Assembly: GCF_026344005.1 (NCBI RefSeq)
Contig: NZ_JAPKNH010000001.1
Location: forward strand, 434,001-498,000
Direction of reading: 5' to 3'
DNA length: 64,000 nucleotides
From: Kaistia terrae
Lineage (GTDB): Bacteria > Pseudomonadota > Alphaproteobacteria > Rhizobiales > Kaistiaceae
The translations under genes and the position numbers were made by a program. Positions 58,045-64,000 of the stretch are shown here, piece by piece (the first letter of the stretch is position 1; the number at the start of each line of letters is the position of its first letter). The notes beneath the pieces are model-generated. The model did not search any database. It was not told the DNA's origin and saw only the letters and a list, made by a program, of their open reading frames with translations.

Positions 58045-61000
58045 CTATTCGACCACCACAGCTTCCGGATGCGGAGCCTTTGCCCTGACCGCGAGCTCCG
58101 TCACGGCCGTATTGTCGACCTTGCCGGATCCGAGCATTGGCAGCTTTTCGACGAAGATCACCGTCCTCGGCAGCATGATCTCCGACAGGCCGCGCGTCCG
58201 GGCGAAGCGCTGGAACTCCGCGAGGTCGGCGTCCGGCCGCTCGGTCACCAGCACGATCTCCTCGCCCTTGCGCTCATGCGGCACGGCGGCGGCCGCCGTC
58301 GCATGGTGCGGCCAGAATTCGCCGGCCAGCGCTTCAAGCGCCGCCAGCGACACCATTTCGCCGCCGACTTTGGCAAAGCGTTTGGCGCGACCGGAGATGG
58401 TGATGTAGCCGCTATCGATGGTGACGATGTCGCCGGTGTCGTACCAGCCATCGACCGGCGCCTCGAGCACGCCCGGCGCCTCGGCGCGATAGTAGCCGCG
58501 CATGACATTGGCGCCGCGAACCAACAATTTTCCGCCTTCCTCGATGCCGGCGATCTTTTCCAGCCGGGTTTCGATGCCGGGAAGCGCCTTGCCGACCGAG
58601 CCCGGACGGTTGGCCATCGGCGTGTTGATGGCGATGACCGGCGCAGTCTCGGTCGTGCCATAGCCTTCCAACAGGCGGATGCCGAACTTCTCCGACCAGA
58701 CGCGGCGCGTCTCGGGCTTCACCCGCTCGGCGCCGGCGAAGACATAACGCACCGAATAGAAGTCGTAAGGGTGCGCCATCCTGGCATAGCCGGCCAGGAA
58801 AGTGTCGGTGCCGAACAGGATGGTGGCGTTCACGTCATAGGCCATTTCCGGCACGATCCGGTAATGCAGCGGCGAGGGGTAGAGCATCTGCCGGACGCCG
58901 GAGAACAGCGGCAGCAGGCAGCCCGCCGTCAATCCGAAGGCGTGGAACAGCGGCAGCGCATTGAGGACGATGTCCTCGCCGGAGAAGTCTATGACGCTGG
59001 CGATCTGCTGGCGGTTTGACTGGATGGCGTGGTGGCTGAGCGAGACGCCCTTGGGTGTTCCCTCGGAGCCGGAGGTAAACAGCACCACGGCTTCGGCCTG
59101 CGGATCGGTCGGGCGCTGGAAGGCGACGCGGGAGAGAAACAGCGGCGCAACCCCGCCAAGCATGGCAAACAGCTTGCGGAACAGGCCGATTTCGCCGCGC
59201 AGATCCTCCAGATAGACGATCCGGGTGTTCTGGCCGAGTATGTCGATCAACGGCTGCAAGCGGCCCTTTTCCACGAACAGCCGCGAGGTCAGCACCAGCT
59301 TGACCTCAGCCGCCTTCCGCGCCGCGTCGACCGAAGCAGGGCCGGCGGAGAAGTTGAGCATGGCCGGGATGCGGCCCGTCACCTGCAGCGCGAAGAACGT
59401 GACGACGGCGGCAAGCGTGTTGGGCAGCAGCACGCCGACCCGCTCGCCCGGCGAAGTCAGTTTCGCGAACGATTTTCCAAGCGCGAACGCGCCGCGGATG
59501 ATCTGCGTATAGCCGATCGGGCTGCGGGTGACGTCTTCGATGACGGGACGCTTGCCGTGGATATGGCGGGCATGCAGCAGCGCGTCGAACAGAGTCTCCG
59601 CCGCCGGGCTGGTCTCGTAGACCATCTCGGTCATGATTGCTTGCAGGTGATGGCCTGCCTCGTGGCGGCGCTTGCGTCCGACAAGGCCGGGCGTCAGCTC
59701 GATCCGGCGCGTCGGCAACACCGTCATCTGGATGTCGGGGAACAGGCGGCGCCGAACCTTGCCCTTGAGCCGTGAGAAGATCGTGTATTGCGCGCCGTCG
59801 ATGCGGACGGGGATGATCGGCACGTCGGCAAGCGCCGCGATCATCGCCGGGCCGTCATAGACCTTCATCAGCGCGCCGGTGACGGTGATGCGCCCTTCCG
59901 GGAAGATCACAAGCCGGCGGCCTTCCTTCACCAGCTTGACCATTTTTCGCACGGTGAACGGGCTGGTCGGGTCGACGGGCACGAGATCGAAGAACAGGAA
60001 GGCCGGCTGCACCCACCAGCGTTCGGCGATGTATTTGTTGATCGCGAACACCGGCTTGCCCGGCAGCAGGCAGCCGATCAGCACAGCGTCGAGGAACGAG
60101 GTGTGGTTGACCACCACCACCGCCGATTCCTCTCCGTCGCCATAGTTTTCCAACCCCTTCACGCGTGCGCCGAAGAAGAGCTGGAGAAGGCGATGGCCGA
60201 TCGCCTTGACCAGTTCGTCGGGGACGAATTTCAGGCACACGATGGCCGCGATGATGTTGGCGAGGCCGAGCCAGAACAGCAGTTGCAGCGTCGTGACCCC
60301 AGCAGCGAGCAGGCCCGCCGCAACGACGGTGCCGAGCACCATGACGGCCGAATTCATGATGTTGTTGCCGGCGATCGCAGCCGAACGCTCATGCTCGTCG
60401 GCGCGCGATTGCAGCAGCGCGTACAGCGGCACGGTGAACAGGCCGCCGCCAAAGGCAACGCCGACGAGATCGATCAGGACGCGAATGCCGGGGCCCGACG
60501 TGATGAACGCGCCGAAATCGAGCGCGCCACCGGCGCCGACCGCGCCGAGCGCGCTGGCCGAATAGGACAAATCGACCATGAAGGCGGCCATGACCAGCGC
60601 GCCGATCGGCGTATGGCGGGCCGAGATGTGGCCGGCGAGCACTTTTGCTGTGGCGGCCGAGCCGAGCGCGATGCCGACGACGAAGGCGGCGACCAGCAGG
60701 TTGGCGACGATTTCGTCGACCTTCAGCGTCGACTTGGCGAAGTCGGGGAACACCGACATCACGATCAGGCCGATCATCCAGAACCAGGAGATGCCGGAGA
60801 CAGCGAGGAAGAGCGTGCGTTTGCGGCGAATGGCGGCGAAGGCGTCGCGGCTGGAGCCGATGAGCGAGAACTTGAATTTTCCGGCTCCCGGCGCCGGCGG
60901 GGCGGACGGGATGAAAAAGGCGGCGACCGCGCCGATCAGCGCGACGGAGACCAGGCCGACAATCGCCACCCACTTGCCGCCGAGACCGATGGTGAGGCCG

Positions 61001-61545
61001 CCGAACAGCGTGCCCAGCAGGATGGCGACGAAGGTCGAGCCCTCGAACAGCGCATTGGCGGCGACCAGCCGTTCGCGGCCGACGAATTGCGGCAGGATCG
61101 AATATTTCGCCGGCCCGAAGATGGTCGATTGCACCGCGTAGAGGAACATGCCGAGCAAGGCGAGGGGTGCGGAATGGATCATGATGGCGATCGACGACAG
61201 GATCGCCAGCCCGACCTCGGCAAGCCGGGTCCAGCGCACGACGAGCTTCTTGTCGACCGTGTCGGAGAGCCGGCCCGAGACGCCGGAGAACAGGAAGAAG
61301 GGCAGCATGAACACCGCGCCGCCCAGCGTCACCGCCACTTGCGGCGATAGGCCGAACAGATCCGCGCCGCCATAGGCGACCATGAAGCCGAAGGCGCTCT
61401 TCAGCGCATTGTCGGCAAACGCGCCGAACCACTGCACGATGAAGAGCGGCAAAAAGCCCGGCGTCTTCAAAAGGGGCGGGGAGCCGGCAGGCGTGGCGCC
61501 AGGCGACGGGGTGTCGTGCGGTGATGTCTGTGCGGAAGCGTCCAT
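58045..61545 (-). CDS. aas: LplT-Aas fusion: lysophospholipid transporter / acyltransferase / acyl-ACP synthetase
   Basis: 1166 residues, three modules. Residues about 20-420: an MFS transporter (LplT-like; FLPLFIVQWFGAFADNALKSAFGF, YGGADLFGLSPQVAVTLGG, VFPDFAKSTLKVDEIVANLLVA). About 440-640: a PlsC acyltransferase with HX4D in VVNHTSFLDAVLIG and FPEGRITVTG. About 660-1160: an AMP-forming acyl-ACP synthetase with LFTSGSEGTPKGVSLSH, GYGTTETAPV and a YDTGDIV motif. Together they take up lysophospholipids across the inner membrane and re-acylate them. E. coli has lplT and aas as two genes. ATG at 61545 is chosen (GAGG 10 bases upstream). Confidence 0.92.
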   Translation of the reverse strand: MDASAQTSPHDTPSPGATPAGSPPLLKTPGFLPLFIVQWFGAFADNALKSAFGFMVAYGGADLFGLSPQVAVTLGGAVFMLPFFLFSGVSGRLSDTVDKKLVVRWTRLAEVGLAILSSIAIMIHSAPLALLGMFLYAVQSTIFGPAKYSILPQFVGRERLVAANALFEGSTFVAILLGTLFGGLTIGLGGKWVAIVGLVSVALIGAVAAFFIPSAPPAPGAGKFKFSLIGSSRDAFAAIRRKRTLFLAVSGISWFWMIGLIVMSVFPDFAKSTLKVDEIVANLLVAAFVVGIALGSAATAKVLAGHISARHTPIGALVMAAFMVDLSYSASALGAVGAGGALDFGAFITSGPGIRVLIDLVGVAFGGGLFTVPLYALLQSRADEHERSAAIAGNNIMNSAVMVLGTVVAAGLLAAGVTTLQLLFWLGLANIIAAIVCLKFVPDELVKAIGHRLLQLFFGARVKGLENYGDGEESAVVVVNHTSFLDAVLIGCLLPGKPVFAINKYIAERWWVQPAFLFFDLVPVDPTSPFTVRKMVKLVKEGRRLVIFPEGRITVTGALMKVYDGPAMIAALADVPIIPVRIDGAQYTIFSRLKGKVRRRLFPDIQMTVLPTRRIELTPGLVGRKRRHEAGHHLQAIMTEMVYETSPAAETLFDALLHARHIHGKRPVIEDVTRSPIGYTQIIRGAFALGKSFAKLTSPGERVGVLLPNTLAAVVTFFALQVTGRIPAMLNFSAGPASVDAARKAAEVKLVLTSRLFVEKGRLQPLIDILGQNTRIVYLEDLRGEIGLFRKLFAMLGGVAPLFLSRVAFQRPTDPQAEAVVLFTSGSEGTPKGVSLSHHAIQSNRQQIASVIDFSGEDIVLNALPLFHAFGLTAGCLLPLFSGVRQMLYPSPLHYRIVPEMAYDVNATILFGTDTFLAGYARMAHPYDFYSVRYVFAGAERVKPETRRVWSEKFGIRLLEGYGTTETAPVIAINTPMANRPGSVGKALPGIETRLEKIAGIEEGGKLLVRGANVMRGYYRAEAPGVLEAPVDGWYDTGDIVTIDSGYITISGRAKRFAKVGGEMVSLAALEALAGEFWPHHATAAAAVPHERKGEEIVLVTERPDADLAEFQRFARTRGLSEIMLPRTVIFVEKLPMLGSGKVDNTAVTELAVRAKAPHPEAVVVE

Positions 61546-61591
61546 GACGTCAAACCTCAGCCTGTTCGCGGCGACTCGCAAGTCGCTTTTA

Positions 61592-61636
61592 TTGAACGAT
61601 GTTCAATTGAATATCATCGTTTTGAACGCTGTTCAA
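61592..61636. promoter_or_regulatory. twin TetR operators between aas and its regulator
   Basis: Two almost identical perfect inverted repeats: TTGAACGATGTTCAA (61592-61606) and TTGAACGCTGTTCAA (61622-61636), centres 30 bp apart (three helical turns), between divergent starts. Each half-site is TTGAAC. This is the expected binding site of the adjacent TetR protein. Confidence 0.85.
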
Positions 61637-61732
61637 TACATGCTATCCCGTCCGGTGATAGGGAACGCAGTTGGAGTGGCCGGCCCGGCTTTCGCAGGAA
61701 TGCGGTCCGGACTGGCAGAAGGCAGGAACGGC

Positions 61733-62317
61733 ATGGCACGTCGCAGCGATCATGCGCCCGATGAATTGAAGCGCCTCGCAAGCGATGCCGGCCGGGCGAT
61801 CGCCTCGGAGGAGGGGCTTCGCGGACTGACCGTGCGCCGCGTCGCCGAGCGGATCGGCTATGCGCCCGGCACGCTCTATAATCTGTTTGCCAATCTCGAT
61901 GACCTGATCGTGCAGATCAACGGCTCGACGCTGGATGCGCTGGGTGTCGTGCTGGCCGAAGCGGCGAAGGCAGATCCGGAAGACCGGCCGCGAAAACTGG
62001 TCGAGGCCTATTTTGATTTCGTCGAAAGCCGGCCGCGCCTCTGGAGCATGTTGTTCGAGCATCGATTGCCGGAGGGAGAGGATCTGCCCGACTGGTATCG
62101 GCCGAAGCTCGCGGCGCTGCTGGCTCTCGTGGCCGAGGCACTGGGACCGCTGATGCAGGATCAGACCTTTGAGGCGCGGCAGGCGATCATCGTCACCATG
62201 TGGGCCGGGTTGCACGGCATCTCGACGCTGGCGGTCTCAAGCAAGCTGACCCTCGTCGCTGAAACCGACCCACGCCAGTTGGGCCATCTTCTCGTCCAGC
62301 GAATGCTGGGGCGCTAG
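61733..62317 (+). CDS. TetR/AcrR family regulator, probable repressor of aas
   Basis: 194 residues. TetR helix-turn-helix (LKRLASDAGRAIASEEGLRGLTVRRVAERIGYAPGTLYNLFANLDDLIVQ) followed by a C-terminal ligand-binding domain of the FadR/YerO-like type (FDFVESRPRLWSMLFEHRLPEGEDLPDW). It is divergent from the LplT-Aas gene across two strong palindromes, so it is likely to repress it and itself; an acyl-CoA or lysolipid ligand is plausible but not shown. ATG at 61733 with AGGA six bases upstream. Confidence 0.9.
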   Translation: MARRSDHAPDELKRLASDAGRAIASEEGLRGLTVRRVAERIGYAPGTLYNLFANLDDLIVQINGSTLDALGVVLAEAAKADPEDRPRKLVEAYFDFVESRPRLWSMLFEHRLPEGEDLPDWYRPKLAALLALVAEALGPLMQDQTFEARQAIIVTMWAGLHGISTLAVSSKLTLVAETDPRQLGHLLVQRMLGR

Positions 62318-62361
62318 GGCAAGGCCGCCGTCCTCTTGGGCATCCGGGCCGCGTGCGAGCT

Positions 62362-62557
62362 TTCTGGACCCTCCTTCGAGGCTTCGCTGCGCGAAGCACC
62401 TCAGGATGATGGCCGGTAAGGGTGAGGGGACGGGGAGCATGAGGCTTCGCCGGATGATCCCGTACCTTCGTCGGGAGCTGACTTGGTGCCCTCTGGAGCC
62501 ACACGACCATCATCCTGAGGTGCCCGGCAGAGCCGGGCCTCGAAGGAGGGTCCAGAA
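62362..62557. repeat. large inverted repeat, family B (complete)
   Basis: A 21-bp exact inverted repeat (62362-62382 with 62537-62557, starting TTCTGGACCCTCCTTCGAGG) encloses a second 14-bp pair CCTCAGGATGATGG (62399-62412) / CCATCATCCTGAGG (62507-62520). Both arms also contain small palindromes (cttcgctgcgcgaag; cccggcagagccggg). The unit sits between the convergent TetR and kinase genes. Confidence 0.85.
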
Positions 62558-62571
62558 GGCTCCTTACAACC

Positions 62572-63579
62572 TCAGCTCGCCGCAACCTCGGCCTCGCGGA
62601 CGATCCCGAGGGCCGCGTCAAAGGCCGGAGCGATGGTGCGGGGCAGGGTGCCGGCGTTGAGCCGGTAGGTCGGCGTCGCGCTGACGAGCTTGGACAGCAG
62701 GCGGAACAACACCTGCTGCTGAGGCGGGACGCCGTCGTCGAACACGCCGATATTGTCGGTCAGTATGACGGAAAGCGCGTCGGCCTTGCTGAGACGAGAA
62801 AGGCTTGCCTCGCCATCCGAACGCGGCCCGACCACGACCACGGCGGCGATCTTGTAGCTTCGAGTGGCGTCCGGCAGCGGCATCAGTCCGGCGAGCGCGG
62901 CGCGCGTCAGCGGCGCCTCGTCCTCGTCGCCGCCAAATTCGCCGAGATGCGGCGCGATTTCCGGGAACAGCGCCGCCGTCCGTCGCTGCACCTTCAAGGT
63001 GCGCGGCATGCCCCAGCCGACAAGGTCGGTACCGTCCTGGCGCAAAATGACTGCGTCATCGCCCATATGGCCAAAGCCGCCAAGCGCCAGAGCCAGCGAT
63101 GTCGTCGTCTTGCCGAAACCACTGGGCGCGAAAAGCAGCACCAGTTCGTCGCGGTCCGGCAAAAGCAGCGATGCCGAGTGAATCGTCATCAGCCCATGCC
63201 CGCGCAGGGCGATGTCGAAAAGCACCGCGCCGGCCATCGAGCGAAGCGGCTTCTCGGCGGACCCTACCGCCAGGACTTCGGTTAACGGCCGGCCGGCTTC
63301 CTCGATGATCGAGAGCCTGCCCGGCATATAAAACTGCTGGCGCTCGCCCGAGCGATGGATCTCGGCATAGCTGCCGTCGATCAGCGTGCCGCTCCAGATC
63401 ATTGCGCCCTGGGGCGCAATGTCGTCACCGGCGGCCTCGCGGATGACAATCTCATGCTCGACAGGGCCTTCCGGCTGCACGAACTCCGCGAGTTGCGGGA
63501 AAGCCACCTCACCAGTGTCCTGGCGCTGGTCGACGAGATTGAAGGTGAGGCCGGGTATGACGAACCGGGTCGTGGACAT
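62572..63579 (-). CDS. HPr-kinase-like (HprK-related) protein kinase
   Basis: 335 residues. An N-terminal ~140-residue domain of mixed strands (FVIPGLTFNLVDQRQDTGEV ..., no recognised motif), then an HprK-like kinase core: HSASLLL, Walker A APSGFGKTTTSLALA (about 150), the double acid GDDAVIL (about 172) that in HprK holds Mg2+ and the catalytic base, and a C-terminal region (LFRLLSKLVSATPTYRLNAG). Related kinases occur in lasso-peptide clusters (phosphorylating the peptide) and in uncharacterised HprK-related/PqqD loci. Its ATG shares the last base of the upstream TGA (TGATG), so it is coupled to the B2-type protease gene. Confidence 0.85.
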   Translation of the reverse strand: MSTTRFVIPGLTFNLVDQRQDTGEVAFPQLAEFVQPEGPVEHEIVIREAAGDDIAPQGAMIWSGTLIDGSYAEIHRSGERQQFYMPGRLSIIEEAGRPLTEVLAVGSAEKPLRSMAGAVLFDIALRGHGLMTIHSASLLLPDRDELVLLFAPSGFGKTTTSLALALGGFGHMGDDAVILRQDGTDLVGWGMPRTLKVQRRTAALFPEIAPHLGEFGGDEDEAPLTRAALAGLMPLPDATRSYKIAAVVVVGPRSDGEASLSRLSKADALSVILTDNIGVFDDGVPPQQQVLFRLLSKLVSATPTYRLNAGTLPRTIAPAFDAALGIVREAEVAAS

Positions 63580-64000
63580 CAGGCGGGTCTCGCGCGGTTC
63601 TTCTCGACGAAAATCGTCACCATGGACGGCTCCGGCGGATTGAGGATTTCCATATTGTCCGCCACCACCCAGCAATGCGCGGAAAGCTTCGCACTGCCGA
63701 TGCTCTTGCGGTCGACGCCAAAGTGCATTTCGGCCGGTATACCCGCGAGCGTGAGGAAACGATAAGCGAGAATTCCTTCGCGCAGGCAGCGGCGGTCGCG
63801 CATGACCCAGGGCCGCCGCGCCGCGCGCTTGGAGCGATGGGCGATATAGGGCGCAGCCAGGCCGCGATAGCGGCGTCCGGGACCGGCATCGGCAATCTTC
63901 ATGATATCGGAGAAATCACGCGATTTGCGACAGCGTAACGCCAGCGTGCGGGCCCAGAACCAGAGTTCAGTCCGGAACATAAGCCAGCGAAGGACGCCGT
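63579..64000 (-). CDS. lasso-peptide B2-type (transglutaminase-like) protease, 5' partial
   Basis: At least 140 codons reach the window edge; the frame is open through base 64000, so the N-terminus probably continues outside. The C-terminal Transglut_core3 domain has the Cys-His-Asp arrangement of lasso B2 leader peptidases: MRDRRCLREGILAYRFLTLAG, IPAEMHFGVD, SAHCWVVADNMEILNPP. The upstream WFWARTLALRCRKSRDFSDIM helix is also family-like. B2 proteins cut the leader of a ribosomally made peptide with help from a PqqD-like B1 protein. It is coupled to the HPr-like kinase. No precursor is visible within the window. Confidence 0.8.
   Translation of the reverse strand, partial: GVLRWLMFRTELWFWARTLALRCRKSRDFSDIMKIADAGPGRRYRGLAAPYIAHRSKRAARRPWVMRDRRCLREGILAYRFLTLAGIPAEMHFGVDRKSIGSAKLSAHCWVVADNMEILNPPEPSMVTIFVEKNRARPA

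Follow-up and report, generated by a model that had tools for sequence, protein, structure and literature searches.

A cyclase-less RiPP-type cassette with an HPr-like kinase and dispersed candidate precursors in Kaistia terrae

Linear polyphosphorylated peptides (LPPs; Popov et al. 2026) are described, in the part of PMC13381572 available to us, as products of clusters that combine an RRE, an HprK-like kinase and an NTP transferase and have no cyclase. According to the same text, core Ser3 receives one to four phosphates from the kinase, the observed product is linear, LPPs are restricted to Bacillota, and their co-localisation with paeninodin is reported for Bacilli. Kinase-type lasso systems (paeninodin, Bsf and pseudomycoidin; available parts of PMC10368454, PMC9266682 and PMC8498205) have homologues of the same enzyme genes, B1, B2, K and N, as the cassette described below, but differ from it in possessing a cyclase, an ABC transporter, an Asp/Glu ring acceptor and longer cores. 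In the Bsf system, BsfK phosphorylates Ser3, the leader carries YxxPxL at −17 to −12 and Ile at −2, and B1 aids both K and B2 (PMC10368454, in the sections available).

We analysed a window of 64,000 nucleotides of Kaistia terrae DNA (assembly GCF_026344005.1, contig NZ_JAPKNH010000001.1, positions 434,001 to 498,000), at whose right end the first-pass annotation had seen the edge of a possible RiPP locus and a candidate for an undescribed system, with a B2-like peptidase gene overlapping an HPr-kinase-like gene. Both open reading frames are real and lie where that annotation had put them, with the TGATG overlap present, and the edge reading was borne out, as the B2/HPr-like kinase pair is followed to the right by a precursor gene, a PqqD-like B1 gene and a nucleotidyltransferase gene. 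These three predicted genes all fall within 2 kb, and the predicted cyclase is not among them. The claim of novelty also stood, since the open-licence PMC literature yielded no description of the set of B1, B2, K, N and precursor; our search for the cassette in Alphaproteobacteria, which covered the same literature mostly at the level of titles and abstracts, with preprints outside its scope, likewise found none.

Cassette genes and their distribution

Five genes and nothing else, K, B2, B1, A and N, occupy the space between a TetR-type and a Crp-type gene. B1, B2 and K form one minus-strand operon with start/stop overlaps (ATGA between B1 and B2, TGATG between B2 and K), and divergent to it stand a 37-codon precursor gene, A, then N and then the Crp/Fnr-type gene. 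The start of B2 lies 10 bases past the right window edge, and the right-hand genes are given in coordinates of L009, 20 kb of sequence read across that edge (window position = L009 position + 58000):

61724..62317, + strand: TetR-type regulator by sequence reading, start chosen within ORF 61382-62317; left border, outside the system
62572..63579, − strand: K, HPr-kinase-like, 335 aa from its own ATG, P-loop intact
63579..64000 (L009 5579-6010), − strand: B2, lasso-type leader peptidase, 143 aa (NF033537, PF13471)
L009 6007-6300, − strand: B1, PqqD-like RRE, 97 aa (PF05402)
L009 6440-6553, + strand: A, linked precursor, 37 codons, TTG start behind GGAGG, MANRSEKKPYERPELVKRDRVAMIVAAISGSAPLPPP
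L009 6692-7750, + strand: N, NTP_transf_5 protein, 352 aa from the chosen start (PF14907)
L009 7815-8492: Crp/Fnr-type gene, right border of the cassette

There is no transporter gene among the genes between TetR and Crp, and a scan of the divergent B1-A region for promoters and terminators returned none. To the left of TetR and the cassette in Kaistia, the neighbouring gene (58045-61581) encodes a protein of 1178 aa that reads as a fusion of MFS permease, acyltransferase and AMP-ligase; to the right of Crp, the genes read as resembling those of glycogen metabolism. The stretch between TetR and K (62344-62565) contains two ~50-bp inverted REP-like elements, and a 2-kb query including it gave 143 matches in the own genome, where all matches listed, the self match aside, fall in 62344-62565.

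K was found in 9 of 28 genomes of the family (E <= 1e-8), six of them among the 14 of the genus, K. terrae included; across the order, 17 of 397 genomes have it (E <= 1e-15). The K orthologues in the five other genomes of the genus are 61-76% identical and share the gene order acyl-TetR-K-B2-B1-A-N-Crp (one contig ends inside the acyl gene), so the pairing of K and B2 is not a matter of chance. In all eight Kaistia without K, the acyl, TetR and Crp genes are contiguous and none of the five cassette genes (K, B2, B1, A, N) is matched in the fetched stretch; with the site empty in eight of eight cases, the cassette is gained or lost as a single piece. In the B2 profile search, the best 80 of 91 confirmed loci were mostly from Mesorhizobium, the other hosts including Aquibium, Hoeflea, Ancylobacter, a Candidatus Sedimenticola MAG and a MAG labelled Phycisphaera. 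After eight same-contig duplicates and L026 were removed from 100 annotated loci, 91 distinct loci were left; L026, which was dropped from the counts, has a weak K match and an AsnB match and none to B1, B2 or N. B1, B2, K and N occur together in 90 of the 91 loci (L122 lacks N), a count that speaks of the co-occurrence of the other genes and not of abundance, as loci were picked by K or B2. Near three cassettes we also noted genes for DUF6065 proteins (L044 5239-6303, L128 5563-6642 and L108 10575-11333), two of them fused to a second PqqD domain; the DUF6065 protein is possibly an extra modifying enzyme.

The peptidase and the RRE are recognised by curated models. B2 scores 52.8 bits against a cut-off of 33 for NF033537, which four of four distant relatives tested also pass, and 46 against 26 bits for PF13471; B1 passes PF05402 (38.5 vs 23.4 bits). 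Cys75 and His112 of B2 are invariant in alignment A2. The residue at His+12, which we take to be Asp in lasso B2 proteins, was Ser or Asn in 82 of the 89 family members inspected. We gave up the idea that its replacement means loss of B2 activity, since the lasso B2 proteins inspected from Mesorhizobium lack the Asp as well. Searches of the B2 and N sequences against solved structures gave nothing useful, and Foldseek with the B2 model gave uninformative matches only (E > 0.6), a putative cysteine protease at the top.

K reaches none of the curated HPr-kinase cut-offs (PF07475 12.9 vs 33.3 bits; the best, TIGR04352, 25.6 vs 200). Searched against solved structures, its alignment found HPr kinases at E = 0.002 beside other P-loop proteins, for instance a replication factor C subunit at 0.0026. 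Its P-loop is intact, and H134, K157, D174 and D175, invariant among 13 aligned sequences, are residues that we take to match the published kinase motif of kinase-type lasso systems; K is a putative peptide Ser kinase. Membership in the HprK-related kinase A group, one of the options of the first-pass annotation, did not hold up at 25.6 against 200 bits. HPr-rel-A loci (TIGR04352) resemble the cassette in having a distantly related kinase with a protein matched by the N profile and what reads as a PqqD-like protein, but the five that we fetched contain no B2 match at E <= 0.01.

Short precursors, linked and dispersed

The linked precursor of the window has the leader motif YERPEL, a first core Ser at position 3 and no Asp or Glu at positions 7-9. 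By iterated profile search, 49 of the 91 cluster loci yielded 81 distinct precursors, and the other 42 yielded none. Aligned on the leader Tyr (n = 81), the family has Y in 80 sequences; position +3 is P or A in 81, +11 is L in 71, +15 is V or T in 70 and +16 is A in 73. We set the core start at +17 after the leader Tyr by the Bsf register (Y = −17; PMC10368454, as available to us); the cassette precursors share this register, with V or T at −2 in 70 of 81 where Bsf has Ile. With the core start so inferred, the 81 cores have a median length of 10 residues, 69 being of 12 or fewer and three longer than 30. Ser is present in 76 of 81 cores, the first at position 3, 4 or 5 in 61. A second collection of 74 distinct peptides, partly overlapping the first 81, has Ser in 73 and the pattern Cys-x(1-3)-Ser-x(1,2)-Cys in 18. 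The linked Kaistia leaders are under purifying selection: among five leaders, pairwise dN was 0.00-0.24 and dS, where computable, 0.42-1.21, with 3 of the 10 pairs saturated.

A profile of the leader alone matched, at E < 0.1, ORFs with 70 distinct cores (< 45 aa), of which 69 contain Ser and the remaining one Thr, and had no match in the same 4138 ORFs reversed or in 1127 ORFs of the window, the empty sites and other own-genome loci; the loci for this control were mostly fetched through the A4 profile, whose rows include cores, so it is not wholly selection-free. The L022 locus of Kaistia has a divergent linked precursor whose ORF runs into N. In the Aquibium locus L108 (9567-10504), we observed five precursors with VTLIWVP-like cores, four of them without Ser, and N is there a weaker match sited across B1 from its usual side; these peptides are perhaps Thr-modified or of a different chemistry.

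The most unusual feature of the system, beyond what the window alone could show, is its dispersed precursor set. With the A4 profile, matches far from the cassette were found in 12 of 12 cassette genomes. The own genome has four matches at E < 1e-4, the linked precursor included, and a fifth that is weaker; the unlinked ones are the following:

C32:534001: unlinked precursor, core VSATSTIKS, beside what read as gcv-like genes
C23:280327: unlinked precursor, APCTSNDPCGPQ
C1:63302: unlinked precursor, ATLTISGIPVPPT
C35:107392: weaker fifth match (E 0.003), EPIAISGVPHVG

With E < 1e-4 as the limit, the six cassette-bearing Kaistia genomes yield 4, 6, 6, 8, 9 and 13 matches, and no genome has more than one that is linked. 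One Mesorhizobium has 14 matches, two with an internal stop, and some Mesorhizobium precursors flank what read as exopolysaccharide genes. Tandem arrays of three to six precursors occur in G024, G017, G018, G014 and G022. Such arrays lie at L158 7701-8934, L157 7863-9015 and L172-L174, with several cores of the form Cys-x-x-Ser-x-Cys, possibly disulfide or metal-binding peptides; those of L157 and L158 adjoin a gene that reads as FGGY-kinase-like. Nine of the 42 loci with no precursor found by the profile (L022, L039, L040, L055, L081, L090, L107, L112 and L126) sit in genomes that were searched whole, and all nine of these carry unlinked precursors; a by-eye motif scan of 13 of the 42, L022 aside, gave no convincing linked candidate.

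Precursors and cassette go together across genomes. Precursors were found in each of the 15 cassette genomes examined (best E <= 1.8e-6), A4 being partly built from the linked precursors of some of the 15, and 36 cassette-less genomes (15 without a K match and 21 without a B2 match) have none at E <= 0.01; two marginal matches, at 0.03 and 0.07, are both in cassette-less Kaistia. This distribution bears on an explanation in which the HPr-like kinase is a metabolic regulator and the small ORFs an unrelated family of leader peptides. Many unlinked precursor ORFs do adjoin what read as metabolic genes, as such an explanation would have it, but the lack of precursors in the cassette-less genomes, the gain or loss of the cassette as a unit and the match of B2 to a lasso-specific curated model all count against it, and we consider it very improbable. 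The common leader and the genomic co-occurrence suggest instead that the cassette processes the unlinked peptides too, and that a single machinery would serve them all is a speculative reading of these sequences.

Lasso cyclases in the genomes and flanks

The first-pass annotation had read the locus as a possible lasso-peptide cluster. B1, B2, the kinase, the nucleotidyltransferase and a YxxPxL leader are indeed all common to kinase-type lasso clusters, so that the cyclase might be encoded elsewhere or have been missed. Within the examined flanks, an AsnB match at E <= 1e-5 occurs in none of the 91 distinct loci. Genome-wide, PF00733 gave some match in all 19 cassette genomes searched. A near-full-length Asn_synthase domain is present in 11, namely G014 (Kaistia), G006, G027, five genomes of the Mesorhizobium group, G102, G069 and G182, which leaves room for a cyclase somewhere in those genomes. 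The other eight, among them the own genome (G000) and four other Kaistia, have short matches only; one of the eight, G024, is a single contig. The three over the cut-off in the own genome are MnmA, NadE (NAD synthase) and ArgG (argininosuccinate synthase).

The Mesorhizobium genomes provide a positive control, as our home-made AsnB profile detects a lasso cyclase in the same genomes that hold the cassette (E 1.5e-275). All three Mesorhizobium regions examined (L209, L210 and L211) have matches to B1, B2, AsnB, K and N together, ~9-30 kb from the cyclase-less cassette, and a lasso-like precursor was recognised by its pattern in two of the three. One region has the following cluster:

L209 9796-13820: kinase-type lasso cluster with precursor MESKMEQNVERHEYETPSLTVHGSIETITQGGGGNTATDVSFPAHTPIGDLTFS, B2, cyclase, kinase, ABC transporter and N

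In L209, the sole region run through the libraries, the cyclase scores 791 against 525 bits for NF033535 and B2 scores 65.9 bits for NF033537. Against the cassette profiles, B2 of this cluster reaches only E 1.6e-5 and its kinase 1.7e-8: the cassette and the lasso cluster are distinct sets of genes. The proximity of a canonical lasso cluster in Mesorhizobium could be taken in favour of the lasso reading, and cross-talk is possible there because a true lasso cluster lies nearby; against that reading, these clusters have their own, distantly similar B1, B2, K and N.

The precursors point the same way as the missing cyclase. Cores with a median of 10 residues are short for a lasso peptide, and Asp or Glu at core positions 7-9, counted from the inferred core start, is found in 7 of the 81 cluster-locus precursors, being absent from 74, and in 10 of 74 of the second collection. 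We therefore rejected the lasso assignment, as the own genome has no cyclase and the cores mostly lack ring acceptors; for the own genome this reading is already refuted, short of a new, unrelated cyclase, and overall we give it hardly any credence.

A proposed pathway and its relation to LPPs

The reading that we prefer, and hold to be probable, is that this is a RiPP cassette without a cyclase and that its enzymes work in trans on a number of dispersed precursors. As read from sequence, it builds on the genes themselves, the gain or loss of the whole cassette in one step, the lack of a cyclase in the own genome, the precursor family and the co-occurrence of that family with the machinery. 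By analogy, its product is best read as a linear, Ser-phosphorylated and probably further capped RiPP. In the proposed pathway, modelled on homologous systems, B1, the PqqD-like RRE, would bind the YxxPx[LV] leader and present the precursor to K, which would phosphorylate a core Ser, perhaps repeatedly. B2 would cut after residue 16 past the leader Tyr (in the window's precursor, directly after YERPELVKRDRVAMIVA), releasing a linear core of mostly 5-14 residues. More speculatively, N would then modify the phosphate further, the likeliest addition being a sugar or another phosphodiester-linked group, and the peptide might be extracellular or associated with envelope glycans.

The role of N depends on what it transfers. 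N is well above the cut-off of PF14907 (94.5 vs 31.2 bits), and the carboxylates D139, D141 and E188 are invariant in its alignment. Foldseek with the N model (pLDDT 89) found no match at E <= 0.001; the weak ones, at E 0.06-0.2, are to aminoglycoside and lincosamide nucleotidyltransferases such as ANT(2'')-Ia and LnuA, to ppGpp synthetases and to FKRP. In Mesorhizobium, three inserts beside N were run through Pfam: those of L053 and L073 encode a formyltransferase and that of L091 two glycosyltransferases; a fourth (L117) reads as unrelated catabolic genes. In pseudomycoidin, the homologue PsmN has been connected with the addition of one or two hexoses to phospho-Ser, a route by nucleotidylation being left open (review PMC9266682, as available), and for LPPs the available text of PMC13381572 has deletion of the NTP transferase LppN without visible effect in a heterologous host.

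These data must be weighed for a scheme with the same enzymes and precursors in which the peptide stays inside the cell as a signal or tag and N adds a nucleotide (NMPylation) and not a sugar. The cassette has no linked exporter, and the top fold matches of N, all of them weak (E 0.06-0.12), are nucleotidyltransferases (ANT(2'')-Ia, LnuA) and ppGpp synthetases, as this scheme would predict. On the other side are the link of PsmN to hexose addition on phospho-Ser (PMC9266682, in the part available), the presence of FKRP, a phospho-alditol transferase, among the same weak matches, and the three Mesorhizobium inserts with formyltransferase (two) or glycosyltransferase (one) genes. We regard the intracellular, NMPylating scheme as unlikely, though it deserves some weight. 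Because of the PsmN-hexose link, FKRP among the fold matches and the Mesorhizobium inserts, we favour the phospho-linked sugar cap, by analogy and at less than an even chance.

The preferred trans-acting cassette is closest in kind to LPP clusters, within what the accessible text of PMC13381572 covers. Both combine an RRE, an HprK-like protein and an NTP transferase without a cyclase, the kinase of the cassette being assigned by homology and below curated cut-offs. Both have a YxxP leader, Ser near the N-terminus of the core and a similar distance from Tyr to the cleavage site, which in the cassette is a predicted one. A kinase-type lasso cluster is likewise found nearby in Mesorhizobium, where some precursors lie by what read as polysaccharide genes. 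One could therefore see the cassette as a true LPP family member moved from Bacillota into Alphaproteobacteria. The defining LPP components differ, however. The LPP protease is a SipW-like (SpI-like) signal peptidase, whereas the Kaistia cassette has a lasso-type B2 instead, and the MsbA-like transporter of LPP clusters has no linked counterpart. The LPP leader reads YxxPxVLxHQxIxFETxxS; the cassette precursors have no more of it than YxxPx[LV] and a hydrophobic residue at +11, the HQxIxFETxxS part being absent, and the LppA core has 45 aa against ~10 aa in cassette precursors. LPP clusters have one to three precursors of 35-200 aa, compared with up to 13 matches per Kaistia genome, and LPPs are stated to be Bacillota-restricted, while the cassette is mainly alphaproteobacterial. 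As its protease, transporter and leader motif are not those of LPPs, we did not file the cassette under that name and judge a transfer of the LPP family improbable. By analogy, we take the cassette to work like the LPP system and to be a new variant of cyclase-less, kinase-modified RiPPs, not a lasso system.

Our fuller proposal is tentative, and we put it somewhat short of an even chance. One B1-B2-K-N machinery, with minimal precursors dispersed genome-wide, would produce a panel of linear, phospho-Ser-linked peptides that perhaps carry a phosphosugar cap; among them, a subset with Cys-x-x-Ser-x(1,2)-Cys recurs. Such a RiPP class, lying outside Bacillota, would diversify through its precursors and not through its enzymes, with N an FKRP-like phosphosugar transferase and not an NMP transferase.

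If the preferred reading is true, cyclase-less, kinase-modified RiPPs reach from Bacillota into Alphaproteobacteria, many Mesorhizobium included. The loci also show that a lasso-type B2 peptidase gene can stand in clusters that have no lasso cyclase gene. Since the precursors are very short and scattered, genome mining based on cyclases or on linked precursors is expected to miss these peptides. Cores of ~10 residues are easy to synthesise and would help in studying the uncharacterised NTP_transf_5 step in vitro. As the cassette is present or absent within one genus, with empty sites for comparison, its function in Kaistia should be testable by comparing strains.
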